A stretch of 64,000 nucleotides of DNA from Kineococcus xinjiangensis. GTDB taxonomy: Bacteria > Actinomycetota > Actinomycetes > Actinomycetales > Kineococcaceae. The translations under genes and the position numbers were made by a program. How positions within the stretch are numbered: the stretch's first letter is position 1; every line of letters starts with the position of its first letter. Location: NCBI RefSeq assembly GCF_002934625.1, contig NZ_PTJD01000014.1:1-64000 (forward strand), written 5' to 3'. The notes under the pieces are model-generated. The model was not told where the DNA came from, searched no databases, and worked only from the letters and a program-made list of their open reading frames with translations. Of this stretch, positions 3,912 through 17,221 are shown in pieces.

Positions 3912-4694
3912 TCAGGCCTGGCGCGCTTCCCAGGCGAGCCGCAGGGTGACCTGGTCGCCCTGGGCGCCGTCGTTCTCCGTGCCGGTCCGGGTGCCCAGCG
4001 TGTACGCGGTGTCGCGGTGCGGGAGGAGGTAGGAGATCCGGTAGGTGATGTACGTGGGGGTGGAGACCGAGCCGGCCGCGAGCCCCGCCATCCGGATGCC
4101 GTTGGTGTAGCTGGTGTGGGACGCCGGGAACGTCGTCGTGCTGACCGGGTCCTTCAGGTACGGCTGCGCGACGTTGCTGTTGTTGACCGTGAACTGGGGC
4201 TCGGTGGCGGCGGTCCAGGCGGTGCCGTTGGCCGCTTCCGCGCAGGTGGTGCTCGTCGCGTCGGTGGTGTGGCTGCCGAGGCGGGCGGACACGCGGAACT
4301 GGAGCTGGTCGTCGAGGTCCCACAGGTTGGTCGAACCGTCGAGGGTGGCGTCGTCGACGCTCAGGTAGGTCCCGGCGGCGGCGGTGTCCGCGGTGTGCGT
4401 CGTGGTGGTGTACAGCGCCAGGTCGGTCGCGGTCTGGCCGACGTAGGCGACCCGGATGCATCGGTCGACCCACGTCGTGGACGGGATGATGTTGGTGACG
4501 ACGATCGTGGCCGCGCCGGTGTCGTTGTTCGTCAGCGTCATCGAGCCGGCCGTGAACGTGTTGTTGTCCGTCTCGGTCCGCGCCGTGAACGCAGCGGAGG
4601 AGGACTGGTAGACCAGGACCCCGCTCATGAGCAGACCGAGCGGGACAGCGGCGATGGCGGCGCCACGACGACGGCGCTCAGAACGTGCGGACAT
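3912..4694 (-). CDS. TasA/camelysin-like secreted protein with SipW-type signal peptide
   Basis: A 260-residue exported protein. The N terminus has a basic stretch (RSERRRRG), a hydrophobic segment at about residues 12-32, then AAFTARTETDNNTFTAGS, the arrangement typical of SipW-dependent signal peptides (A-x-FT, then N-T-F at the mature start). The mature part is rich in Thr and beta-branched residues with two Cys, as in the TasA/CalY (camelysin) family, whose members form fibres or surface layers. The ATG at 4694 has a strong GGAGGAAG site 6-7 bases upstream. It is divergent from the SipW operon and shares its 255-bp control region. Inferred to be a substrate of the signal peptidase at 8509-9894; whether it forms fibres is unknown. 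Confidence 0.75.
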   Translation of the reverse strand: MSARSERRRRGAAIAAVPLGLLMSGVLVYQSSSAAFTARTETDNNTFTAGSMTLTNNDTGAATIVVTNIIPSTTWVDRCIRVAYVGQTATDLALYTTTTHTADTAAAGTYLSVDDATLDGSTNLWDLDDQLQFRVSARLGSHTTDATSTTCAEAANGTAWTAATEPQFTVNNSNVAQPYLKDPVSTTTFPASHTSYTNGIRMAGLAAGSVSTPTYITYRISYLLPHRDTAYTLGTRTGTENDGAQGDQVTLRLAWEARQA

Positions 4695-4949: not shown

Positions 4950-6758
4950 ATGGGAACGGTGGGCTCGAACGAGTCGCGCACGGGCCTCGGCGACCTCCTC
5001 ACGCGCGCGCCCCTCGCGGGCTCGGCCCTGCTCGGAGCAGTGGCGGTCGCCGCCCTCGTCCTCACCTCGACCGGCTCCGCGGGGCTCGGCACCGATCCGC
5101 CGCGCTACGCCACCCAGCAGGTGAGCGGCCTGTCCCTCCTCGGGGGCACCGGGGCCGTGCTGCAGGCGGAGCACCTCGTCCCCGGCCGCCCGGCCGTCGG
5201 CTGCGCGGACGTCGAGGTCACCAGCGGCTCGCCGCCCGGGCCGGTCGTCTTCAGCGTCGCGGACGTCAGCGGCCCCCTCGCGAGCAGCCTCAACTTGCAC
5301 ATCGAGGAGGGGCCCCTCACGGCGGACGGGGACTGCACCTCCTTCGCGGGCGCTCCGCTGTTCACCGGGACCCTCGCGGAGCTCGCCGCCCTGTCGGCGG
5401 GTTCCGACCTCGGTGTCGCGGGGCCCTCCCTGCCGGGCGGCCGGCTGGAGCGCCGCTACAAGGTCACCGCAGAGGTGGCCGACGACGACGCCGCGCAGGG
5501 CCTCGCCGCCAGCGCCCGCTTCGTGTGGTCGGCCAACACGACCTCCCTCGTCGTCACGCCTGTGCCGCAGCCCGCCCCGGCCCCCGCGCCCGCTCCGGCA
5601 CCCGCGCCCGCTCCGGCACCCGCGCCCGCTCCGGCCCCTGCCCCGGTTCCGGCACCCGCGCCCGCCCCGGCCCCGGCTCCCGCCCCGGCCCCGGCTCCCG
5701 CCCCGGCCCCGGCTCCCGCCCCGGCCCCGGCTCCCGCGCCGGCCCCTGCCCCGGTTCCGGCTCCCGCCCCGGCCCCGGCTCCCGCGCCCGCCCCGGCCCC
5801 TGCCCCGGTTCCGGCACCCGCCCCGGCCCCGGCTCCCGCGCCCGCCCCGGCCCCTGCACCGGTTCCGGCACCCGCCCCGGTTCCGGCTCCCGCGCCCGCC
5901 CCGGCCCCTGCCCCGGTTCCGGCACCTGCACCCGCACCCGACAACCGCCCGCGCTCGCCGATCAGCCCGGCCCCCCAGATCCCCTGGTTCCCGGACCGGA
6001 CCCCCGCGCCCGGCCCTGTCCCCACGCCCGTCCCCACGCCTGTCACCACCCCGGGCCCCGACCGCGGTCCTTCCACGCCCCCGCGGGTGAGCTGGCCGAT
6101 CACGCCGACGCCCGGCAACCCGTGGTACCCGCGCCTCGCGCCGCCGCCCGGCACGCTGCTGCTGCCGCCGCCCCCGACGGTCCTGCTGCCGGACCGCACT
6201 CCCCTGCCGCTGCCACCCGGCGCGCCCGGCACCCTGCCGCCGGGCCCGTGGGCGCCGGGTGTGGGCCCGGCCGGCAACACGGCGGCGGGCCCCGGCGGCA
6301 GCTTCCTCGTGAGCAGTGGCGACGCCGGCGAGGGCAGGTTCAGCGACGGCGGCGTCCGCGGCACGGGCGACGAGGACACCGGCATCCGCGCGCCCCTGCC
6401 CGGCTCCGACGTCTCGCAGTGGCTCGTCGAGAAGCTGCGGCTCGAGGGCCAGGCGGCCTCGATGGCGCAGGCGATGGCCGCCACCAGCGGCTTCCCCCTC
6501 CTGCTCCTGCTGCTGGTCCTGATGTTCCTCGTGATGCAGGACCGCCTCGACCGCCGCGACCCGAAGCTGGCCCTCGCCCCGCTGCGCCCGGATGCCGATG
6601 CAGTGTTCGAGGCACACCCCGACGACGCACCGGAGGGAGCGCTGCCGCGGCTGCTCCGCCTGCTCCTGGGCGAGGTGGCGGCGGACCAGCCGCCGAGGAA
6701 GGGCGGACACCGCCACCGGGAACACCCGCAGGCCCGCACGCCGGGGAGGACGTCATGA
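4950..6758 (+). CDS. Pro-Ala-stalk, membrane-anchored surface protein
   Basis: A 602-residue protein, first gene of the SipW/LamG operon. Residues about 12-45 hold a hydrophobic export segment (LLGAVAVAALVLT). Residues about 45-200 form a beta-rich domain with paired Cys resembling the TasA-like region of the SipW fusion (LHIEEGPL, CTSFAGAPLFTG). Residues about 206-330 are an almost pure Pro-Ala repeat (PAPAP, sometimes PAPVP), followed by Pro-rich sequence to about 450. A transmembrane helix (LLLLLLVLMFLVM) lies at about 513-530 with a basic cytoplasmic tail. The plan is export signal, head, extended wall-spanning stalk, membrane anchor. The ATG at 4950 has GGGGG 5 bases upstream; the frame is open to 4749 but that part looks like leader. 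Its stop overlaps the next start (ATGA). No close named family is recognised. Confidence 0.7.
   Translation: MGTVGSNESRTGLGDLLTRAPLAGSALLGAVAVAALVLTSTGSAGLGTDPPRYATQQVSGLSLLGGTGAVLQAEHLVPGRPAVGCADVEVTSGSPPGPVVFSVADVSGPLASSLNLHIEEGPLTADGDCTSFAGAPLFTGTLAELAALSAGSDLGVAGPSLPGGRLERRYKVTAEVADDDAAQGLAASARFVWSANTTSLVVTPVPQPAPAPAPAPAPAPAPAPAPAPAPAPVPAPAPAPAPAPAPAPAPAPAPAPAPAPAPAPAPAPVPAPAPAPAPAPAPAPAPVPAPAPAPAPAPAPAPAPVPAPAPVPAPAPAPAPAPVPAPAPAPDNRPRSPISPAPQIPWFPDRTPAPGPVPTPVPTPVTTPGPDRGPSTPPRVSWPITPTPGNPWYPRLAPPPGTLLLPPPPTVLLPDRTPLPLPPGAPGTLPPGPWAPGVGPAGNTAAGPGGSFLVSSGDAGEGRFSDGGVRGTGDEDTGIRAPLPGSDVSQWLVEKLRLEGQAASMAQAMAATSGFPLLLLLLVLMFLVMQDRLDRRDPKLALAPLRPDADAVFEAHPDDAPEGALPRLLRLLLGEVAADQPPRKGGHRHREHPQARTPGRTS
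5568..5940 (+). repeat. coding Pro-Ala repeat tract
   Basis: About 370 bases of short GC-rich units (gcccccgcgcc, ccggccccggct and variants) encode alternating Pro-Ala with occasional Val. The units recur imperfectly and are prone to slippage, so stalk length may vary between strains. Confidence 0.8.
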
Positions 6759-8497
6759 GCACGCGAAGCACGAGCAGTGGAGATGGGCGCCACACCGGCA
6801 CCGCCGGTCTCGTCAGCCTCGTCGAGCGCCTGCGCTGGACGACCGCGCTGCGGCTCGTCGTCGCCCTGCTGCCCGTCCTGGCGTGGGTCCTGCTGCCGCT
6901 GGACCGCTCGGCTCCGTGGACGTCCGTGGCGGTGCCGGCGGTGCTGTACTCGCTGTTCCTGCTGGCCGGCAACGTGCTGGCCCGCACCCGCGAGTCCGCG
7001 CTGGCGCTGCTGGGCACCGGTCTCATCCTCGACGGCGTCTACCTGGGCTGGATGTTCCGCTGCCTGGAGGGCCTCGACGGCCCGATGGGCTACGTGCTCG
7101 TCCTGCACGCCATGTCGATCACGCTGCTGGCCTCGTTCCGCACCGGCGTGAAGCTCGTGCTGTGGCACTCCCTGGTGCTGCTCGTGGTGCTGGAGGCCGA
7201 CCGCGTCGGGCTGCTGGGCGAGTCCGTCCTGCGCTCCTCCACCACCGACTACGCCCTCCAGCTCGTCGTGATGTGGGGGATCGTGCTGAGCACCGCGCTG
7301 TTCGCGGCGGCGAACGAGCGGGAGCTGCGGCGCCGCCGCTACGACGCCGAGGTCCTGCGTCGCCTCGCCCTCGCCCTGGAGTCGGCGGACAGCAGCACCG
7401 CCACGGCCCTGCTGCTGGCGCACCTCGCGAAGGGCGAACTGCTGGCGCGGCGGGCGGCGGTCGTCGTCCTGGACACCGCCGAGCACGTCCCCGCGGAGGA
7501 GCAGCGCACCGGACGGGCCGCGGCCGGAACCGCCGTGCGCGGGCGCGGCACCGCCGTCGTCCTCGGCGTGGACGGCTCGGAGCACACCCAGCGCTTCACC
7601 ACCGACCTGCCCGCCCGGTCCCTGCTGGTGCGGGCGGTCGTGACCCACACGACGCTGCTGGCGCGCGCCCCCCACGCACTGCACGACGCGTGGCTGGAGA
7701 CGCTGCTGCCGAGGGCGCACAACCTCGTCGTGGTGCCGTTCGCGCTCGAGGGCCAGACGGCCGGGGCGCTCGTCATGGAGCACCCGGGCAGCCGGTGGGG
7801 TCTGCGCTGGCTGGACGCCGGGCGACCGCCCCGCGTGGAGCGGCGCCTGCTGGCCACCGCCGAGCAGGCCACGGCACACGTCGGGCAGGCGCTCGGGCGG
7901 ATCGCCCTGGTGACTCGCCTGCGGGCCGCGGCGAGCACCGACGGTCTGACGGGGCTGGCGAACCGGCGGGCGTTCGACGAGGCGCTCGCCGCCGAGTTGG
8001 CGCAGGCCGAGAGCCCCGCCGGGACCTTCTCCGTCGTGCTGGTCGACCTGGACCACTTCAAGGTCCTCAACGACACCCACGGCCACCTGGCCGGGGACGA
8101 CGCCCTGCGTGCGGTGGGCCGGCTGCTGCAGCGCTCCCTGCGCGAGGGGGCGACGGCCGCCCGCTACGGCGGGGAGGAGTTCGTCGTCCTCCTCCCCGGC
8201 ACGGACCGGGAGGATGCCGTCGCGGTCGCCGAGCGCCTGCGGCGCGGGATCGCCACGACGGAGGACGGCCCGGTCCCCGTCACCGCGAGCCTCGGGGTGG
8301 CGTGCTTCCCCGCGGACGGCACCGACGCCCTGTCCCTGCTGGCGACGGCGGACGCCGCGCTGTACGCGGCGAAGCAGCGCGGGCGCAACCGCGTGGAGGA
8401 CTCGGCGGCCCTGCACCGCGCCGACCCCGTGGCGACGGCCGCTCCCGTCGAGGCGACCGCTCCGCGGAGGCGGGCGGCATCCGGCCGGAAGAGGTAG
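6755..8497 (+). CDS. membrane diguanylate cyclase (GGEEF)
   Basis: A 580-residue protein that makes cyclic di-GMP from two GTP. Residues about 30-190 contain five or six hydrophobic helices. A GAF-like sensory region follows (about 205-390), then a GGDEF domain at about 400-560 with an intact RYGGEEF active site near residue 472, FSVVLVDLDHFK and LNDTHGHLAGD. The inhibitory I-site (RxxD five residues before the motif) is not conserved (REGA), so product inhibition may be absent. The C-terminal tail is basic. The ATG at 6755 overlaps the stop of the stalk gene (ATGA) and has GGGGAGGA 5 bases upstream, so it is co-translated with surface-protein genes. It is inferred to tie this operon to c-di-GMP control of adhesion or matrix. 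Confidence 0.9.
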   Translation: MSTRSTSSGDGRHTGTAGLVSLVERLRWTTALRLVVALLPVLAWVLLPLDRSAPWTSVAVPAVLYSLFLLAGNVLARTRESALALLGTGLILDGVYLGWMFRCLEGLDGPMGYVLVLHAMSITLLASFRTGVKLVLWHSLVLLVVLEADRVGLLGESVLRSSTTDYALQLVVMWGIVLSTALFAAANERELRRRRYDAEVLRRLALALESADSSTATALLLAHLAKGELLARRAAVVVLDTAEHVPAEEQRTGRAAAGTAVRGRGTAVVLGVDGSEHTQRFTTDLPARSLLVRAVVTHTTLLARAPHALHDAWLETLLPRAHNLVVVPFALEGQTAGALVMEHPGSRWGLRWLDAGRPPRVERRLLATAEQATAHVGQALGRIALVTRLRAAASTDGLTGLANRRAFDEALAAELAQAESPAGTFSVVLVDLDHFKVLNDTHGHLAGDDALRAVGRLLQRSLREGATAARYGGEEFVVLLPGTDREDAVAVAERLRRGIATTEDGPVPVTASLGVACFPADGTDALSLLATADAALYAAKQRGRNRVEDSAALHRADPVATAAPVEATAPRRRAASGRKR

Positions 8498-8508: not shown

Positions 8509-9894
8509 GTGAGCTCTCAACGAGCCGACGATCCGCTCATGACCGCCCTGCCCGCGCCCACCGCCGCTGCCTCGCGCAGTGGTGGACGCGGCAGCGGCCG
8601 GCGGGTGCTGCCGGTGCTGACCGGCGCGCTGGCGGGCCTGCTGCAGGTGACGGCCACGGTCGCGATGACCACCGCGGCGGGCCTGCTGGTGTGGTCGATG
8701 CTGCCCCTGGCCTTCGGCTGGCAGGCCTCCGCCGTCGTCTCCGGCTCCATGCACCCCCAGATCCGCGTCGGCGACGTCGTCCTCACGTCCCCACCCGACG
8801 ACGTGCAGGTCGAGCCCGGCATGGTCGTGATGTTCCCCGACCCCAGCGGCCTGCAACGCCACGTCATGCACCGCGTCGCCGAGGTCGACGAACAGGACCG
8901 CCTCATCACCCGGGGCGACGCCAACCAGTCCGCCGACTCCACCCCCCTGGAGCGCGGGACGGTCGAGGGCATCGGCCGCCTGCGCGTCCCCCTCGTGGGC
9001 ATGCCCCGCGTCTGGTTCAACGACGGCAACTACCCCCCGCTCATCGCCCTCGCCGTCCTCCTCACCCTCGCCACCACCCTCACCCTGCCCCCCAGCCGGC
9101 GCGGTGAGACGGACGCGGCGCCGCAGGCGGCGGGCGATCACACGACCGGCGACACGAAGGACGACGCGGGCGACGAGCACGCGCGCGACGACACCGACCA
9201 CGACGACGACCGGCCGGCCACCGCCGGCGACGCGGACCTGAGCGCGACCGAGAGCCTCATCGCCCTGCTCGCCACCGACCCCCGCACCGGCGCGCCCACC
9301 GGCGCACCCGTCGAGCACCGCCGCAGGGCCATCACCACCATCTCCGTCGCCGTGTCCCTCGCCGTCCTCGTCCCCGCCACCGTCCCCACCGACGCCCACG
9401 CCCGCTTCACCGCCGCCACCCCCACCGGCACCAACACCTTCACCGCCGCCACGGTCGTCCTGAGCCACGACCGGTCCAGCGCCCTCTTCACCCCAGGTTC
9501 GTCGACGACCTCGGCGAGTCCGATGCGCCCGGGCGACGCGGAGTCGGTCTGCCTCACCACCACGTACACCGGGCCCGTCCCCGCGACCGTGCGGCTGCGC
9601 GCCGTGAGCGGGTCGTCGGGAACTCTCGGGTCGCACCTCGACCTGCGCGTCGAGGGTCCCGTCGCGAACTGCGCCGCCTTCGACGCCCTGGCCTCCCACG
9701 CCAGCGCCGTGACCGAGCCCCTGAACACCTTCCTCGCCAACCGGACCTCCTGGACGAACGGCGTGGGGTCCTGGGCCCCGACGGCCGGCGGGCAGACGCA
9801 GGCCTACCGGATCTCCTACCGCTTCACCCGGGGCGCCTCGGGGACCGGCAAGACCGCGACCTTCGCGCTCGCCCTGGAGGCGAGGACGTCGTGA
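8509..9894 (+). CDS. SipW-type signal peptidase fused to TasA-like substrate domain
   Basis: A 461-residue two-part protein. Residues 36-193 are an ER/SipW-type (S26B) signal peptidase: helix about 38-65, catalytic SGSM (Ser80) with MHPQIRVGDVV, HRV with His121 replacing the bacterial Lys, RGDAN at 135-139, and a second helix about 176-193. A linker rich in Asp and His (200-243) follows. Residues 271-300 form a second export signal (RRR, hydrophobic stretch, then ARFTAATPTGTNTFTA), a SipW-dependent cleavage-site pattern, and 300-461 is a TasA-like beta domain with two Cys. Predicted topology is in-out-in-out, so the peptidase could cut its own C-terminal domain free. The GTG at 8509 is preferred because AGGGGG lies 7 bases upstream; an ATG at 8539 lacks a ribosome site. 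Its stop overlaps the LamG1 start (GTGA). Confidence 0.85.
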   Translation: MSSQRADDPLMTALPAPTAAASRSGGRGSGRRVLPVLTGALAGLLQVTATVAMTTAAGLLVWSMLPLAFGWQASAVVSGSMHPQIRVGDVVLTSPPDDVQVEPGMVVMFPDPSGLQRHVMHRVAEVDEQDRLITRGDANQSADSTPLERGTVEGIGRLRVPLVGMPRVWFNDGNYPPLIALAVLLTLATTLTLPPSRRGETDAAPQAAGDHTTGDTKDDAGDEHARDDTDHDDDRPATAGDADLSATESLIALLATDPRTGAPTGAPVEHRRRAITTISVAVSLAVLVPATVPTDAHARFTAATPTGTNTFTAATVVLSHDRSSALFTPGSSTTSASPMRPGDAESVCLTTTYTGPVPATVRLRAVSGSSGTLGSHLDLRVEGPVANCAAFDALASHASAVTEPLNTFLANRTSWTNGVGSWAPTAGGQTQAYRISYRFTRGASGTGKTATFALALEARTS

Positions 9895-12800
9895 GCCACC
9901 TGACCCGGTGCGCCCGCTGGGTCCACGACACATTGGGCGTGCGGTCGGGGGCCCTGCAATGGGTGGCCCTCGCAGCGCTCGCCCTCAGCCTGCCCGGCCT
10001 CACCGGCGCGGTCCTGACCGCCACCGCCCCCACCGCGAGCAGCACCCTGACCTCGGACACGACCTTCCAGACGTACCCGCAGGCCGTGGCCGGCGGCGGC
10101 ACGGTGGGCACCAGCCCCCACCTCTACTACCGCTCCGACGACAGCGCCGCCCACGCGCCCACCTCCACCGCGGCGCACCACTCCGACACCGCCCGCAACG
10201 GCACCTACCAGGCACCCACGGACGGCCCGGAGCTGTGGTGGCAGTTCGACGAGGGCACCGGCACCACGGTCGCCGACTCCTCCGGCTCCGTGAACACCGG
10301 CACGTTCGGGGCGACCACCGCAGCACCCGGCTGGACCAGCGACGGCTACGCCGCCTCCGCAGCGACCTTCGACGGCGGCGACCACGTGGTGAGCAGGCAG
10401 ACCGCCGTGCGCACCGAGACCGACTTCACCGTCGCCGGCTGGGTCTACCTGGACGTCGCCAGTCCGAGCGCCGTGTACACCGTCCTCAGCCAGCCGTCCG
10501 GAACCAGCAGCTCCTTCATCCTCAAGCACGGCTCGACCGGCTCCGGCACGACCAGGAGCTGGGTGTTCCTCGTGAAGCAGGCCAACGGCATCGAGAAGCA
10601 GGCCGTCGCCACCTCCGGCGCCGGAAGCGCCCAGCGGTGGGTGCACGTCGCCGCGACGTACCGGGCGAGCACCAGAGCCTTGACCCTGTACGTCAACGGC
10701 AGCACCGCGGGGACGACCGGCGCCACCCTCGACTCGGGGCAGGTGGGTGCGGTCTCCACCTCGACCGAGGGGCTGAACGCGGGTCGCGCCTGGTACGGCT
10801 CGGCGTGGGTCGACCGCTGGGTCGGCCGCATCGACGACGTGCGGGCGTACTCGCGCGCCCTGAGCGCGGTGGACATCGCCGCGCTGCACGCCCGTCCGGT
10901 CGCGCGGTGGTCTTTCGACGAGGGCACCGGGGTGACGACGGCCGACGTGAGCGGCAACGGCAACACCGGCACCCTCACGAACGGACCCACCTGGGACACC
11001 GGCTTCACCCAGTGGGGCACCGCCTCGGGCACGGTGGGCCTCGGGTTCGACGGCACGGACGACCGCGTCGAGAGCAGCCGCAGCGCCGTCCGCACCGACC
11101 AGAGCTTCACCGTCTCCGCATGGGCCAACCTGTCATCCAAGTCCGGTGCCCGCACGATCGCCAGCCAGTACGGGGGCAGCGCCACCAGCCCTTCCGCGGT
11201 CGGCGGCTTCGCCCTGCGGTACTTCATCCCGCAGGACCGGTGGTCGTTCGTGATGACCCGCAGCAACGTCAACGGCGCCGCCACCGACGAGGTGTTCGGG
11301 GTCGCGTCACCGGCGACGGGGACCTGGCACCACGTGGCCGGGGTCTACGACGACGAACGCAACGAGATGCGGCTCTACGTCAACGGCGTCCTGCAGGGGA
11401 TCCAGGCGAAGGCGGACGCCGACGAGTGGAACGCAGCGGGCCCCCTGGTGGTCGGTCGCGCGCGGTGGAGCAGTGACTGGTACGACTACTTCGCCGGCGG
11501 CATCGACGACGTGCGGGTCTACCGCCACGCCCTGACCGCCGAGGACCTCGCCGCGGCGCACCGGTTCCCCACGATGCTGTGGAACCTCGACGAGGGCGCC
11601 GGCACGACTGCGGGCGACGGCACCGGCGCCCGCAACCACGGCACCCTGAGCGGGGGAACGGCCTGGAACGCCGCGGGTCACCGGGGCGGCGCCGCGACGT
11701 TCGACGGGGTGGACGACATCGTCACGAGCGACCGCGCGCCCCTGCGCACGGACAGGAGCTTCTCCCTGTCGACGTGGGCCAAGCTCACGAGCGACACGGC
11801 GACCCGGACCATCGCCCACCAGGCGGGATCTCCCCTGCACACCTTCTCGCTGTCGTTCGTGCGCGACACCTCGCTCACCCCCGCCACCCGGTGGCGGATC
11901 GCGATGCCGACGGCCAGCGGTGGTCCGGGCGAAGTCCTGGACTCCACCGTCACCCCGGAGAAGGACCGCTGGACCCACCTCGTCGTCGTCTACGACGACC
12001 CAGGCAACACCCTGACCCTCTACGTCAACGGCACCGCGACGACGATGACCCGGCCCGACACCACTTACTGGACCACCAATCCGCTGGTCCTGGGCCGCAA
12101 CCAGAGCAGCACCGCCTGGTGGGCCGGCAGCATCGACAGCTTCGCCACCTACCAGTACGCGCTGACCGCCACCCAGGTCGCGGCCCTCCGCGCCGAGTCC
12201 CCCGCCCTGGCGTGGAACTTCGAGGAGGGCACCGGCACCGCCACCGCCGACGACTCCGGCAACGGCGGCACCGGCACCGTCAGCGGCGCCACGTGGGTCA
12301 CCGGCGGCAGGCCCGGTGGGGCGCTCTCCTTCGACGGGACCAACGACTGGGTCCACGGCCCCTCCTCGGCCCTCGACAGCTCCAGGAGCTTCACCGTCTC
12401 CGCCTGGGTCTACCCGACGTCGTTGCCCACCAGCGGGCACAAGAACATCCTCTCCAAGCACGGCGCTGACAACAGCCCCTTCTTCCTGCAGTACAGCGGC
12501 ACCCCGCAGCGGTGGCAGATGAGCATGTCCAACTCCGACGCCCTGGATCCCGGCTACACCTTCACGCTGTCCACGAGCCAGGCGCAGGTGAACACCTGGA
12601 CCCACCTGGCCGGTGTCCACGACGCCCGCGCCGGCGTCGTGAGGCTCTACGTCAACGGCGTGCTGGAGAGCTCGGCGACCGCGACGTCGACCCCCTGGAA
12701 CGCCACCGCCTTCACCGGCTCCACCGGGCACTTCGCGGCAGGGAGCGCCTGGCACGGCAACGCCCCCGTCAACTACTGGCCCGGGCGCATCGACACCGTG

Positions 12801-13493
12801 CGGGCGTTCCAGCGCGTCCTCGGCAGCGACGAGGTCGCCGCCCTCCACGCGACCACGCAGCCGAACCCGGCGCCCGTCGCGACGGTCCTGCCGCACCGAC
12901 CGGTGGAGGGCATGACCGCCATGCGCTCGGGCGCACTCCAAGGTGCGGCCCAGGGGCAGACGGCCTCCACCGCGATGGCCTTCAGCGGCGCCCGGAGCTC
13001 CGCCCTCCGCGACGGCGGCAGCGCCGAGGCGGCTCCGAGCGAGTTCACCGTCGAGTGCTGGGTGCGGCTCCACCCCGGTCACAGCGGCCACCTCGTCGGC
13101 TTCGCCTCCGAGCGGGAGTCCGCCTACAGCGGCAGCTCCGACCGCATGCTGTTCGTGAACAGCGCCGGTCAGGTGACGTTCGCCATCGCCGGCCCCGGGT
13201 ACGCGAGCAGTCCGTCCCGCATCGACGACGGCCAGTGGCACCACGTCGCGGGGACGTACAGCGCGAGCACCGGCATGCGCCTCTACGTCGACGGCCTGCC
13301 CGTCGCCACGAGGAGCGCCGCGGCCCTGACCAGCTACAACGGCTACTGGCGCTGGGGCGGCGCCCGGATCTCGGGCTGGGGGACCGTCAACCCCCCCAAC
13401 CCGTTCCTCACCGGCTCCCTCGACGAGGTCGCCGTCCACACCACCGCGCTCACCGACCGCGACATCGCCCGGCACTACTGGTCCAACTTCTGA
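9891..13493 (+). CDS. giant secreted protein with five LamG domains (LamG1)
   Basis: A 1200-residue protein. After a short basic N terminus comes a hydrophobic segment (residues about 23-40) ending LTGAVLTATAPTASSTLT, which resembles a SipW-dependent signal. Five concanavalin-A/LamG (jelly-roll) domains follow, starting near residues 113, 337, 560, 772 and 1007. The first four begin with a W-x-F/L-D/E-E-G-x-G strand and carry the RxDxSFTVSAW and LYVNG strands; the fifth is a divergent type ending FLTGSLDEVAVH. LamG domains bind glycans or proteins, often with calcium. No LPxTG or C-terminal helix is present, so it is released or held by partners. The GTG start overlaps the previous stop (GTGA). 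Confidence 0.85.
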   Translation: MSHLTRCARWVHDTLGVRSGALQWVALAALALSLPGLTGAVLTATAPTASSTLTSDTTFQTYPQAVAGGGTVGTSPHLYYRSDDSAAHAPTSTAAHHSDTARNGTYQAPTDGPELWWQFDEGTGTTVADSSGSVNTGTFGATTAAPGWTSDGYAASAATFDGGDHVVSRQTAVRTETDFTVAGWVYLDVASPSAVYTVLSQPSGTSSSFILKHGSTGSGTTRSWVFLVKQANGIEKQAVATSGAGSAQRWVHVAATYRASTRALTLYVNGSTAGTTGATLDSGQVGAVSTSTEGLNAGRAWYGSAWVDRWVGRIDDVRAYSRALSAVDIAALHARPVARWSFDEGTGVTTADVSGNGNTGTLTNGPTWDTGFTQWGTASGTVGLGFDGTDDRVESSRSAVRTDQSFTVSAWANLSSKSGARTIASQYGGSATSPSAVGGFALRYFIPQDRWSFVMTRSNVNGAATDEVFGVASPATGTWHHVAGVYDDERNEMRLYVNGVLQGIQAKADADEWNAAGPLVVGRARWSSDWYDYFAGGIDDVRVYRHALTAEDLAAAHRFPTMLWNLDEGAGTTAGDGTGARNHGTLSGGTAWNAAGHRGGAATFDGVDDIVTSDRAPLRTDRSFSLSTWAKLTSDTATRTIAHQAGSPLHTFSLSFVRDTSLTPATRWRIAMPTASGGPGEVLDSTVTPEKDRWTHLVVVYDDPGNTLTLYVNGTATTMTRPDTTYWTTNPLVLGRNQSSTAWWAGSIDSFATYQYALTATQVAALRAESPALAWNFEEGTGTATADDSGNGGTGTVSGATWVTGGRPGGALSFDGTNDWVHGPSSALDSSRSFTVSAWVYPTSLPTSGHKNILSKHGADNSPFFLQYSGTPQRWQMSMSNSDALDPGYTFTLSTSQAQVNTWTHLAGVHDARAGVVRLYVNGVLESSATATSTPWNATAFTGSTGHFAAGSAWHGNAPVNYWPGRIDTVRAFQRVLGSDEVAALHATTQPNPAPVATVLPHRPVEGMTAMRSGALQGAAQGQTASTAMAFSGARSSALRDGGSAEAAPSEFTVECWVRLHPGHSGHLVGFASERESAYSGSSDRMLFVNSAGQVTFAIAGPGYASSPSRIDDGQWHHVAGTYSASTGMRLYVDGLPVATRSAAALTSYNGYWRWGGARISGWGTVNPPNPFLTGSLDEVAVHTTALTDRDIARHYWSNF

Positions 13494-13556: not shown

Positions 13557-13682
13557 GTGGGCCCCGAACGCGCCGATCCGTCGAAGGTGACCGCTGCCTC
13601 CACCTCCGCTGCGCGCCTCCGCTCGCGCAACCGGATGCGGGTGGCGGCCGGCGCGCCGGCCCTGGAGCGGAGGATGCCGTGA
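13557..13682 (+). pseudogene. collapsed remnant of the SipW-fusion gene
   Basis: A 41-codon open frame, GTG to TGA, with an AGGAG site 8 bases upstream. Its start context (GTCAAGGTG) matches the start of the SipW-fusion gene at 8503-8511, and its first residues (VGPERADP) resemble that protein's start (VSSQRADDP). Its last bases (CCCTGGAG..GAGGA...GTGAGC) match the end of the same gene at 9871-9896, including the stop-start overlap with the following LamG gene. Everything between, including peptidase and TasA domains, is missing. It is best explained as an internally deleted second copy from a tandem duplication; it may now serve only as a translated leader for LamG2. Confidence 0.65.
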
Positions 13683-16600
13683 GCGGCCTGGCCCGGTGCG
13701 CCCGCTGGGTCCGCGGCGTCCTGGGCGTGCGGTCGGGGGCCCTGCAGTGGGTGGCCCTCGCAGCGCTCGCCCTCAGCCTGCCCGGCCTCACCGGCGCGGC
13801 CTTCACCGCCACCGCACCCACTGCGAGCAGCACCCTGACCTCGGACACGACCTTCCCGACGCATCCGCAGGCCGTGGCCGGCGGCGGTACGGTGGGCACC
13901 AGCCCCCACCTCTACTACCGCTCCGACGACGGCCCGGTCCGCGCGCCCACCTCCACCGCGGCGCACCACTCCGACGCCGCCCGCAACGGCGCCTACCAGA
14001 CGGCGACGGACGGCCCGGAGCTGTGGTGGCAGTTCGACGAGGGCACCGGCACCACCGTCGCCGACTCCTCCGGCTCCGTGAACACCGGCACGTTCGGGGC
14101 GACCACCGCAGCACCCGGCTGGACCAGCGACGGCTACGCCGCCTCCGCAGCGACCTTCGACGGCATCGACGACCACGTCACCGCGCCCGCATCCATCGTG
14201 CGCACGGACCAGAGCTACTCCGCTGCCGCCTGGGTGTACCTGGACAGCACCACCGTCAGCCGTGCCGTGATCAGCCAGGACGGCTCGCGGCAGAGCGCCT
14301 TCGCGCTGCAGTACTTCAAGGACACCGGCAAGTGGGCCGTCCGCCTCACCGGCACCGACAGCGACACCGCCACGGAGACCCGCGCCAGCTCCACGTCGAA
14401 CGCGGCGCCGAACACGTGGACCCACCTCGCCGTGGTGCGTGACGTGCCGAACGGAAGGGTGCGGCTCTACGTCAACGGCGTCCAGGAGGCGGACATCGCC
14501 TGGTCCGGCACCTGGCTGTCCACCCAGGGGCTCGCCGTGGGCCGGATGAAGTCCTCGGGTGTCCTCGGGAGCTTCTGGTCCGGCCGCATCGACGACGTGC
14601 GGGTCTACTCCCGCACGCTCAGCGCCCTCGAGGTCGTGCGGCTCCAGACCCGCCCGGCCCTGCAGTGGCCGCTGGCGGAGGGGTCGGGAACGGCCACGGC
14701 CGACGTCAGCGGCAACGGGAACACGGGCACGCTCACGGACGGCGCCACCTGGGACGCCGGCGTCACCCAGTGGGGAAGCGCCCCCGGGGCCCGGGCCGTG
14801 TCGCTCGACGGCACGGACGACCACGTCGCCGGAACCCGGAACGCCGTCCGCACCGACCAGAGCTTCACCGTCTCGGCATGGGCCAACCTGCGCTCCAAGC
14901 CTTGGTACCACACCATCGTGAGCCAGCAGGGGGGGACCGCTGCCGACCCCTCCTCGGCGAGCGCGTTCTTCCTCCAGTACCGCTGGGACGATCAGCGGTG
15001 GGCGTTCACGATGACCCGCACCGACACGGCGACCCCGCTCACCGACCGGGCGATCAGCACGACCCTGCCCGTGGAGGGGACCTGGTACCACGTGGCCGGC
15101 GTCTACGACGACGAGCGCGACGAGCTGCGGCTCTACGTCAACGGCGTCCTGGAAGGCGTCGCCCCCAAGGCGGACAGCACCGAGTGGAGCGCGACGGGCC
15201 CCCTGCAGGTCGGACGCGCGCGGTGGAACGGCGGGTGGGTGGACCACTTCCCGGGACTCGTCGACGACGTGCGGATGCACCGCCGCGCCCTCACGGCCGC
15301 GGACGTGGGCGCCCTGTACCGGTCCCCCTCGATGCTGTGGAACTTCGACGAGGGCACCGGCTCGACGGCCGACGACAGCAGCGGCGCCCGCAACCGCGGC
15401 ACCCTCAGCACGGGGATGACCTGGGACGCGATCGGCCACCAGGGCAGGGCCGTGCTCTTCGACGGCGACGACACCGTCACGAGCGAGCGCGCGCCCCTGC
15501 GCACGGACAGGAGCTTCTCCCTGTCGACGTGGGTGAGGCTGACGAACGACACCGCCACCCGGACCGTCGCCCACCAGGCGGGCACCTTCTCGCTGTCGTT
15601 CACGCGGACGTCGAACAGCACCGCCGTCTGGCGGGTGGAGATGCCGACCTCGAGCGGCGCCGCGGGTGAGGTCCTGAGCTCCACCGTCGCCCCGGTGAAG
15701 GACCGCTGGACCCACCTCGCCGTCGTCTACGACGACCCCGGAAACCTCCTGCACCTCTACGTCAACGGCGTCGTGACGTCCACGGCGCGACCGGACACCA
15801 CCTTCTGGAACACCAACCCGCTGGTCGTGGGCCGCAACCAGGCCGGCACCGCCTTCTGGATCGGCAGCATCGACTCCCTCGCCACCTACGCGCACCCCCT
15901 CCCCGGCAGCCTGATCGCCGCACTGCGCGACGAGGGCCCCACCCTGGGATGGGACTTCGAGGAGGGCACCGGCACGTCCACCGCCGACGTCACCTGGAAC
16001 GGCCGCACCGGCACCGTCAACGGCGCCACCTGGACCACGAGCGGCAAGCCCGGCAGGGCGCTCACCTTCGACGGAGTGGACGACTGGGTGCAGGGGTCGA
16101 CCGCCGCGCTGGACACCACGAGGAGCTTCACCGTCTCCGTGTGGGTCAACCCCGCGTCCCGGCCGGCCAGGTTCATGAACGTCCTCTCCAAGCACGGCAC
16201 GGCCAACAGCTCGTTCATCCTGGAGTACGCCGGGGGCAGCACCGGTGGGGCCGCGGCCCGGTGGCAGATGCTGCTCCCCAGCGACGACGCCGTCTCGCCC
16301 GCCGCCTGGGGAGGCGCCACCGCCGACTCCGAGGTCGTGGCCGGTGCGTGGACGCACCTGACCGGTGTCTACGACGCCCCGGCACGGCAGGTGCGGATCT
16401 ACGTCAACGGCCGCCTCGAGAAGCTGGGCGGCGGTCCGTCGACGAACTGGAACGCCTCCGGCCCCGTGGCGGCGGGCGCCGCCTGGCACAGCACCGCCCG
16501 GACGAACCTCTTCCACGGCAGCATCGACACCGTGCGCATCGTGCAGCGCGCCCTGGACAGCGACGAGGTCGCGCACCTCCACGCTGCGACGACGCCGGTG

Positions 16601-17221
16601 ACAGTGCCCCACCGCTCGACGGAGGGCGCGACGGCCGCACGGCAGGGGGCGTTGCAGGGTCCGACCCAGGGGCAGACCACGTCGACGGCGATGGCGTTCG
16701 ACGGCGTCCGGGGCTACGCGGTCGGCAACTCCGCCGCTGCGGCGTCGGCGGCGCCGAACGAGTTCACCTTCGAGGCCTGGGTGCGCACCACGACGACGCA
16801 GGGCGGCGTCGTGGGCAGCTTCGTCAGCGACACCACCCCCGCCAACGGCGGCTCCTCCGACCGCATGACGTACGTGGACAGCGGCGGCTACGCCTCCTTC
16901 TACGTCACGGTCTCCAACACCGACCACCGTCAGCTCCGCAGCAGGACCCGCGTCAACGACGGCCAGTGGCACCACGTCGTCGCGAGCATGAGCGCGACGG
17001 GCACCAAGCTGTACGTGGACGGCCTCCTCGAGGCGCAGGGAGCGGGCGTGGCCTCGGCGGACGCCTACAGCGGCTGGTGGCGGTGGGGCGGCGCGCGGAT
17101 CAGGAACCGGCCGAACCAGCCGTCGAGCGAGTACCTGCGGGGAACCCTCGACGAGGTGGCCGTGCACTCCACGCAGCTGAGCGACCGGGACGTCGCCCGG
17201 CACTACTGGTCGAACTTCTGA
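13679..17221 (+). CDS. giant secreted protein with five LamG domains (LamG2)
   Basis: A 1180-residue paralogue of LamG1. The N-terminal 160 residues are nearly identical to LamG1 at protein and DNA level: the same hydrophobic segment, here ending LTGAAFTATAPTASSTLT with a clearer A-x-FT SipW-type site, and the same first LamG strand. Identity falls sharply after the first domain, although all five domains keep the same order (starts near residues 113, 327, 551, 754 and 980) and both proteins end in RHYWSNF. The GTG at 13679 has GGAGG 6-7 bases upstream and overlaps the stop of the 41-codon remnant. A duplicated partner or alternative adhesin is inferred; its ligand is unknown. Confidence 0.85.
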   Translation: MSGLARCARWVRGVLGVRSGALQWVALAALALSLPGLTGAAFTATAPTASSTLTSDTTFPTHPQAVAGGGTVGTSPHLYYRSDDGPVRAPTSTAAHHSDAARNGAYQTATDGPELWWQFDEGTGTTVADSSGSVNTGTFGATTAAPGWTSDGYAASAATFDGIDDHVTAPASIVRTDQSYSAAAWVYLDSTTVSRAVISQDGSRQSAFALQYFKDTGKWAVRLTGTDSDTATETRASSTSNAAPNTWTHLAVVRDVPNGRVRLYVNGVQEADIAWSGTWLSTQGLAVGRMKSSGVLGSFWSGRIDDVRVYSRTLSALEVVRLQTRPALQWPLAEGSGTATADVSGNGNTGTLTDGATWDAGVTQWGSAPGARAVSLDGTDDHVAGTRNAVRTDQSFTVSAWANLRSKPWYHTIVSQQGGTAADPSSASAFFLQYRWDDQRWAFTMTRTDTATPLTDRAISTTLPVEGTWYHVAGVYDDERDELRLYVNGVLEGVAPKADSTEWSATGPLQVGRARWNGGWVDHFPGLVDDVRMHRRALTAADVGALYRSPSMLWNFDEGTGSTADDSSGARNRGTLSTGMTWDAIGHQGRAVLFDGDDTVTSERAPLRTDRSFSLSTWVRLTNDTATRTVAHQAGTFSLSFTRTSNSTAVWRVEMPTSSGAAGEVLSSTVAPVKDRWTHLAVVYDDPGNLLHLYVNGVVTSTARPDTTFWNTNPLVVGRNQAGTAFWIGSIDSLATYAHPLPGSLIAALRDEGPTLGWDFEEGTGTSTADVTWNGRTGTVNGATWTTSGKPGRALTFDGVDDWVQGSTAALDTTRSFTVSVWVNPASRPARFMNVLSKHGTANSSFILEYAGGSTGGAAARWQMLLPSDDAVSPAAWGGATADSEVVAGAWTHLTGVYDAPARQVRIYVNGRLEKLGGGPSTNWNASGPVAAGAAWHSTARTNLFHGSIDTVRIVQRALDSDEVAHLHAATTPVTVPHRSTEGATAARQGALQGPTQGQTTSTAMAFDGVRGYAVGNSAAAASAAPNEFTFEAWVRTTTTQGGVVGSFVSDTTPANGGSSDRMTYVDSGGYASFYVTVSNTDHRQLRSRTRVNDGQWHHVVASMSATGTKLYVDGLLEAQGAGVASADAYSGWWRWGGARIRNRPNQPSSEYLRGTLDEVAVHSTQLSDRDVARHYWSNF

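Follow-up and report, generated by a model that had tools for sequence, protein, structure and literature searches.

Architecture of the Fusion Gene

In the 64,000-nucleotide stretch of Kineococcus xinjiangensis DNA analyzed here (the window), a single gene on the forward strand (8509–9894, +) encodes an S26B signal peptidase, a SipW-type export signal and a TasA-fold domain (the cargo) in one protein of 461 residues plus stop. The coding frame is unbroken from GTG 8509 to TGA 9892–9894. GTG 8509, which follows a G-rich stretch (AGGTAGGGGGCGTCAAG), is the likely start judging from the sequence, with ATG 8539 as an alternative; a scan for promoters and terminators found none. GC3 is 0.94–1.00 from residue 21 to the C terminus, the linker included, and because it stays so high throughout, neither a frameshift nor a hidden intergenic gap is indicated. 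Furthermore, the stretch from the second membrane helix up to the export signal contains no ATG, GTG or TTG; the first such codon, GTG282, falls midway through the hydrophobic core, and for lack of a start codon ahead of that core the C-terminal domain is unlikely to be made separately. An internal start yielding a separate C-terminal protein was rejected for the window gene on these grounds, whereas most relatives do have start codons in this region, so that an internal start is possible in those relatives.

The N-terminal half is a complete peptidase. Arg residues precede the first membrane helix (residues 33–68; 8605–8712, +), which is seen in the hydropathy and as helix 23–58 of the AlphaFold2 model of the 451-residue form, and the N-terminal side of this helix is predicted to be cytoplasmic. 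The catalytic domain (8716–8997, +), predicted to lie outside, carries Ser80 (8746–8748), His121 (8869–8871), Asp137 (8917–8919) and Asp143 (8935–8937), and a second membrane helix (residues 178–196; 9040–9096, +; hydropathy and AlphaFold2) is followed by Arg-Arg. The protein scores 58.7 bits against NCBIfam TIGR02228, above the cut-off of 51.85. For this half, a PDB sequence search retrieved the human catalytic subunits SEC11C and SEC11A, in agreement with the fold comparison of the catalytic domain (Foldseek E 1.8e-5 for SEC11C and 8.6e-5 for SEC11A; VIA-align Z 8.5 to SEC11C). The catalytic pair consists of Ser and His without a Lys dyad, an acidic residue follows GD, and the equivalents of Ser80, His121, Asp137 and Asp143 (S70, H111, D127 and D133) occupy invariant columns in 17 fusions. 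The fold, Ser-His-Asp and the membrane helix before the catalytic domain are common to SEC11/archaeal-type signal peptidases (MEROPS S26B; TIGR02228); the window protein extends this plan with another membrane helix, the linker, a further helix or signal and the exported cargo. Against the Bacillus SipW equivalog model NF046067 the protein reached 40.8 of 190 bits, and by sequence the peptidase is SipW-like rather than a SipW equivalog. It is the one clear S26B peptidase of its genome; two weaker matches, which neighbor each other on contig C1, resemble ordinary type I signal peptidases.

The Export Signal and the Predicted Cut

The two halves are joined by an acidic linker (residues 197–270; 9097–9318, +) that is predicted to be cytoplasmic and mostly unstructured (pLDDT mostly <50), with 15 Asp and 3 Glu in residues 197–267. 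The export signal follows (residues 271–298; 9319–9402, +), comprising RRR, a hydrophobic core at residues 274–292 and AHA, and the predicted cut falls between A298 and R299, that is, between nucleotides 9402 and 9403, with AHA before it and RFTAATPTGTNTF after it. The site was located by a blind profile scan, in which a position profile derived from 25 free TasA-like precursors only was slid along 25 fused proteins; the training precursors had been chosen by pattern for the same motif, whereas the scan of the fusions was unrestricted by pattern. In 25/25 fusions the best position was where the third hydrophobic segment ends. In the window protein this site scores 5.1, against −7.8 for the next best position and 0.4 for the top of 50 shuffles of the protein, a value that is modest among the 25 fusions (range −6 to 40), and its +1 residue is Arg. 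Across the same 25 proteins, position −1 is always Ala and position −3 always Ala, Ser or Thr, while +2 is F/W/Y in 23, +6 is Thr in 21 and +13 is Trp or Phe in 20. The window segment has the features of a SipW-type substrate signal, namely a basic n-region, a hydrophobic core, A-x-A and the pattern [A]F(T/S)..T....N.(F/W). The third helix is thus, on these sequence features, most likely a cleavable signal that would be cut after Ala298, and the conserved site argues for cutting of the third segment.

Arg-rich stretches lie before the first helix, after the second and before the third segment, which leads to a predicted topology with the N terminus inside, the catalytic domain outside, the linker inside and the cargo outside.

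The Cargo Has a Predicted TasA-like Fold

The cargo domain (residues 299–461, starting RFTAATPTGTNTF; 9403–9891, +) has no match in Pfam or NCBIfam, the curated TasA/camelysin models (PF12389 and NF046066) included, and PF12389 matches nothing in the genome; a free TasA-like relative reached 21.1 bits of the 22.5 of the curated Pfam cut-off. We used an HMM of the actinobacterial TasA-like family, built here from 26 free proteins of relatives. It matches 9319–9888, signal included, with E 1.2e-30 over model positions 5–196, a nearly full-length match.

A PDB sequence search with the cargo alone returned nothing, and TasA was found by fold search only. The AlphaFold2 model of the full protein, computed from 15 sequences, is of low confidence overall (mean pLDDT 69.9, pTM 0.41) and uninformative on domain placement; within the cargo domain most ten-residue blocks have pLDDT 80–95. 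Foldseek with the whole model gave three matches at E < 0.001: SEC11C, SEC11A and the TasA fibre 8aur (E 1e-4). VIA-align placed model residues 295–451 on 8aur with Z 9.2 (145 residues, 3.6 Å) and gave Z 8.4 to the archaeal pilus 7ueg, and when the cargo was folded alone 8aur was again on top (Foldseek E 1.9e-3; Z 7.5). The fold of the domain and the position of its signal are those of TasA/camelysin (PF12389, NF046066) and of archaeal AbpA pili (7ueg), but the window domain is too diverged for the Pfam and NCBIfam models and is here part of a larger protein.

These results agree closely with the original prediction, which had read from the letters a single frame with a complete S26B peptidase (Ser80, His121, RGDAN), a SipW-type site cut near residue 297 and a TasA-like C-terminal domain. 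The frame holds over all 461 residues from GTG to TGA with uniformly high GC3, the named residues are in place in a protein above the TIGR02228 cut-off, with Asp137 lying in RGDAN, the site is recovered with its cut after residue 298, and the HMM and the predicted fold support the TasA-like domain. The Arg-rich flanks are consistent with the further prediction that the active site and the TasA-like domain are both outside.

Neighboring Genes

The fusion gene lies among further genes of a putative matrix locus. A free TasA-like precursor with a SipW-type signal (3912–4694, −; HMM match 3918–4682) is a possible major subunit and a possible substrate in trans. The gene at 4986–6758 (+), with a tentative start, encodes a TasA-like domain (5013–5540, HMM) followed by a very long stalk of Pro/Ala repeats and, at the C terminus, a hydrophobic segment; its product is possibly a membrane-anchored TasA-like relative. 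The hydrophobic segment has a basic tail, and the protein is possibly a cell-surface anchor for a fibre. Directly 5′ of the fusion lies a membrane GGDEF (diguanylate cyclase) gene (6755–8497, +; PF00990, E 2.5e-46), and its position between the TasA-like and fusion genes suggests control of the matrix locus by c-di-GMP. On the other side, a multi-LamG surface protein (9891–13493, +; PF13385 in five stretches) starts in overlap with the fusion stop (GTGA), and a second multi-LamG protein (13679–17221, +; PF13385) has a signal with LTGA before and AFTATAPTASSTL after the cut. Both long multi-LamG proteins are similar to each other and have SipW-like N termini; LamG is also the commonest cargo of fusions elsewhere.

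The genome has four TasA-like precursors, the fused one included, and the other three are on the same contig (3918–4682, 5013–5540 and 64872–65174). The last of these (contig C14, −; E 3e-15) lies just beyond the window. Since the fusion is the only clear S26B peptidase in a genome with three other TasA-like precursors, the enzyme probably acts in trans too.

The Fusion Recurs across Actinomycetota

A search of databases for the same domain fusion, which had been proposed with the original prediction, turned up 30 or more additional fusions built to this plan in other Actinomycetota. Whole-genome searches covered 198 genomes of the order, 395 of the class and 246 of the phylum, and the best loci of each were read, so that the counts are lower bounds. 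These searches gave same-plan fusions in five genomes (G021, G113, G073, G169 and G176) and stubs in two (G012 and G137), together with fusions in thirteen further genomes of the class (L113–L122, L125, L127 and L128) and in five genomes outside it (L147, L150, L151, L155 and L156). Complete plasmids carry the fusion in Arthrobacter alpinus A3, in Arthrobacter sp. TMP15 (with Ig repeats) and in Pseudarthrobacter sp. BIM B-2242 (with GH26). A contig scan with the window protein as query found no relatives, and the 17-fusion alignment was too diverse to serve as a query; an alignment of the closer LamG fusions yielded 11 named loci, all MAG contigs. Among them are contigs assigned to Nanopelagicales, Marmoricola and Acidothermus, and one is labelled Acidobacteria, possibly through misbinning.

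Behind the signal, the cargo is TasA-like, LamG, bacterial Ig or a GH26 glycosidase (Pfam LamG, Big_7 and GH26), so the arrangement occurs beyond the window gene and is not tied to a matrix subunit as cargo. The TasA profile aligns to several LamG fusions over its first ~50 positions only, which cover the signal and the mature N terminus. Because unrelated cargos are built on the same plan and LamG fusions match just the start of the profile, the conserved element is the signal with the mature N terminus rather than the cargo. Two stub proteins, L101 (2493–3407) and L007, end 17–24 residues after the predicted cut; cargo was not found in other frames downstream of either, and the next gene after L007 is transporter-like. 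Cleavage of the stubs, if it occurs, would set free no more than a short peptide with the TasA-type N terminus. A free TasA-like gene lies close to 33/34 distinct fused loci, usually directly upstream on the same strand.

Fusion genes are annotated by cargo only, for example as “Ig-like domain-containing protein” or “glycosyl hydrolase”. On the plasmid of Pseudarthrobacter sp. BIM B-2242 (L145:6031–7494) the gene is annotated from the Met of the catalytic SxM motif, within the peptidase; the product is named “glycosyl hydrolase” only, the N terminus of the peptidase is cut off and nothing in the annotation points to the fused signal peptidase. In open PMC papers no account of a peptidase-cargo fusion like this was found, an absence that is weak evidence.

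Origin of the Fusions

In a tree of 84 peptidase domains, 20 fusions fall in one clade of 21 rows, the 21st row being a sequence truncated where its contig runs into undetermined bases. The window peptidase falls among unfused peptidases, with weak support; one origin for the window gene and the main fused clade was not rejected (p 0.49), nor was one origin for all SipW-type fusions (AU p 0.19), and the tests are compatible both with a single origin and with repeated origins. Joining the LPxTG-type fusions to the main fused clade was rejected (p 1e-34). These belong to a second, separate kind, in which S26B peptidases carry a different exported region (L045, L046, L061 and L088); in L045 and L046 this region ends in LPRTG, and such cargo may be handed on to a sortase. 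Two unfused relatives (L011 and L012) lack a third helix; in each, the second helix is followed by a very long Pro/Ala-rich tail.

The nearest peptidases and the same precursor family are found in separate actinobacterial TasA-like and SipW-like gene pairs (for example, family f15), but there the two are distinct genes, whereas here an added copy stands in frame 3′ of the peptidase. Among unfused relatives the TasA-like gene is mostly upstream of the peptidase gene, so losing the stop codon between two such genes would not by itself yield the peptidase-first order of the window gene. The window fusion could stem from an array in which the peptidase is flanked by TasA-like genes at either end, as in L101 and L109.

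Discussion

The reading that we favor, and hold to be fairly probable, is that a SipW-like S26B peptidase is translated as one chain with its own substrate, which would be cut after Ala298 to give a minor component per enzyme with a probable role in a fibre. With the N terminus predicted inside, the catalytic domain outside between the first two helices, the acidic linker inside and the cargo outside, the A298–R299 bond would be exposed next to the outer face of the membrane, the side that also holds the active site, and the long, flexible acidic linker would allow the bond to reach it. After export, the same or a sister peptidase molecule would cut after Ala298, cleavage in cis and in trans being equally possible, and so free a TasA-fold protein starting RFTAATPTG. 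With one cargo per peptidase, this protein would be a minor part of the secreted material, produced at a constant ratio to the enzyme. The release of one matrix-type subunit per peptidase, as first proposed, is to be expected provided that the third segment is cleaved, which its conserved site favors; self-cleavage and autoregulation, both also part of the original proposal, found no support in this analysis. The description of the cargo as a matrix subunit does not extend to all relatives, where it may be LamG, Ig or GH26. The enzyme probably does not serve its own cargo only and would probably also process the free TasA-like and LamG precursors in trans.

In B. subtilis, TapA is of low abundance, similar to that of SipW, is found near the membrane and, with the N-terminal strand that it donates, starts TasA filaments (PMC10151520). 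A cargo tied to its enzyme at 1:1 fits such an initiator role, given the similarly low abundance of TapA. By analogy, the freed N terminus probably inserts into free TasA-like subunits, where it would serve as an initiator, base or tip, and in relatives the end of the filament would carry LamG, Ig or GH26 domains. The window locus has in common with tapA-sipW-tasA of Bacillus subtilis (and with sipW-tasA and calY of B. cereus) a dedicated SipW-type peptidase, TasA-fold precursors with a signal of matching type, adjoining genes and, in the reading favored here, a minor initiator like TapA beside a major subunit. In Bacillus, however, the peptidase and its substrates are separate proteins, whereas here one substrate is joined to the C terminus of the peptidase, the host belongs to Actinomycetota, and LamG genes and a GGDEF gene adjoin.

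The third segment might instead stay uncut, giving a three-helix membrane peptidase that displays TasA, LamG or Ig as an accessory or substrate-binding domain. AlphaFold2 draws this segment as a 25-residue helix, the site score of the window protein is modest and the cargos are often binding domains. However, an anchor needs neither Ala at −1 nor F(T/S)xxT..N.W, which nearly all fusions keep and which match the free precursors, and the two stub proteins retain the signal yet display nothing; we regard an uncut segment as unlikely. Lower still do we rate an autoinhibitory role, in which the C-terminal signal would sit in the active site as a tethered pseudo-substrate, to be displaced or cut when free precursors or filament are present. 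Tethering does raise the local concentration, the site is conserved and S26 peptidases are described as cutting themselves, but full and varied cargo domains would then be left without a reason, which makes this role improbable. Finally, a functionally meaningless read-through of two neighboring genes, by a lost stop or an error of assembly or sequencing, might be suggested by the separate, neighboring TasA-like and peptidase genes of many relatives and by the weakly supported place of the window peptidase among unfused ones, but it is dismissed as extremely improbable by the high GC3 across a long linker without a start codon, by the opposite gene order that a lost stop would give, the unfused TasA-like gene being mostly upstream, and by the same plan in many genera and on complete plasmids.

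The same recurrence in many genera, complete plasmids included, excludes a chance arrangement. A sequencing error or hidden stop, which the original prediction had considered for residues 200–270, is disfavored there and was ruled out by GC3 together with the recurrence in other genomes.

A peptidase translated with its own substrate can be taken a step further, although here we are doubtful: there may be a phylum-wide family of self-processing peptidases with exchangeable cargo, placed behind a TasA-type N-terminal strand, in which a cut in cis would free one cargo per enzyme, the freed strand would allow any cargo, be it lectin-like, Ig, a glycosidase or just a short peptide, to cap or start a TasA-like fibre, and the number of fibres would be set by the number of peptidase molecules.

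Signal peptidases are usually treated as general housekeeping enzymes that act on separate substrates. An enzyme that carries its own precursor with exchangeable cargo would make the level of a secreted component depend on how much of its processing enzyme is present, and the fusion architecture offers a ready test of cleavage in cis versus in trans. Furthermore, TasA-type fibre systems would extend widely across Actinomycetota, possibly with lectin, Ig or enzyme ends.
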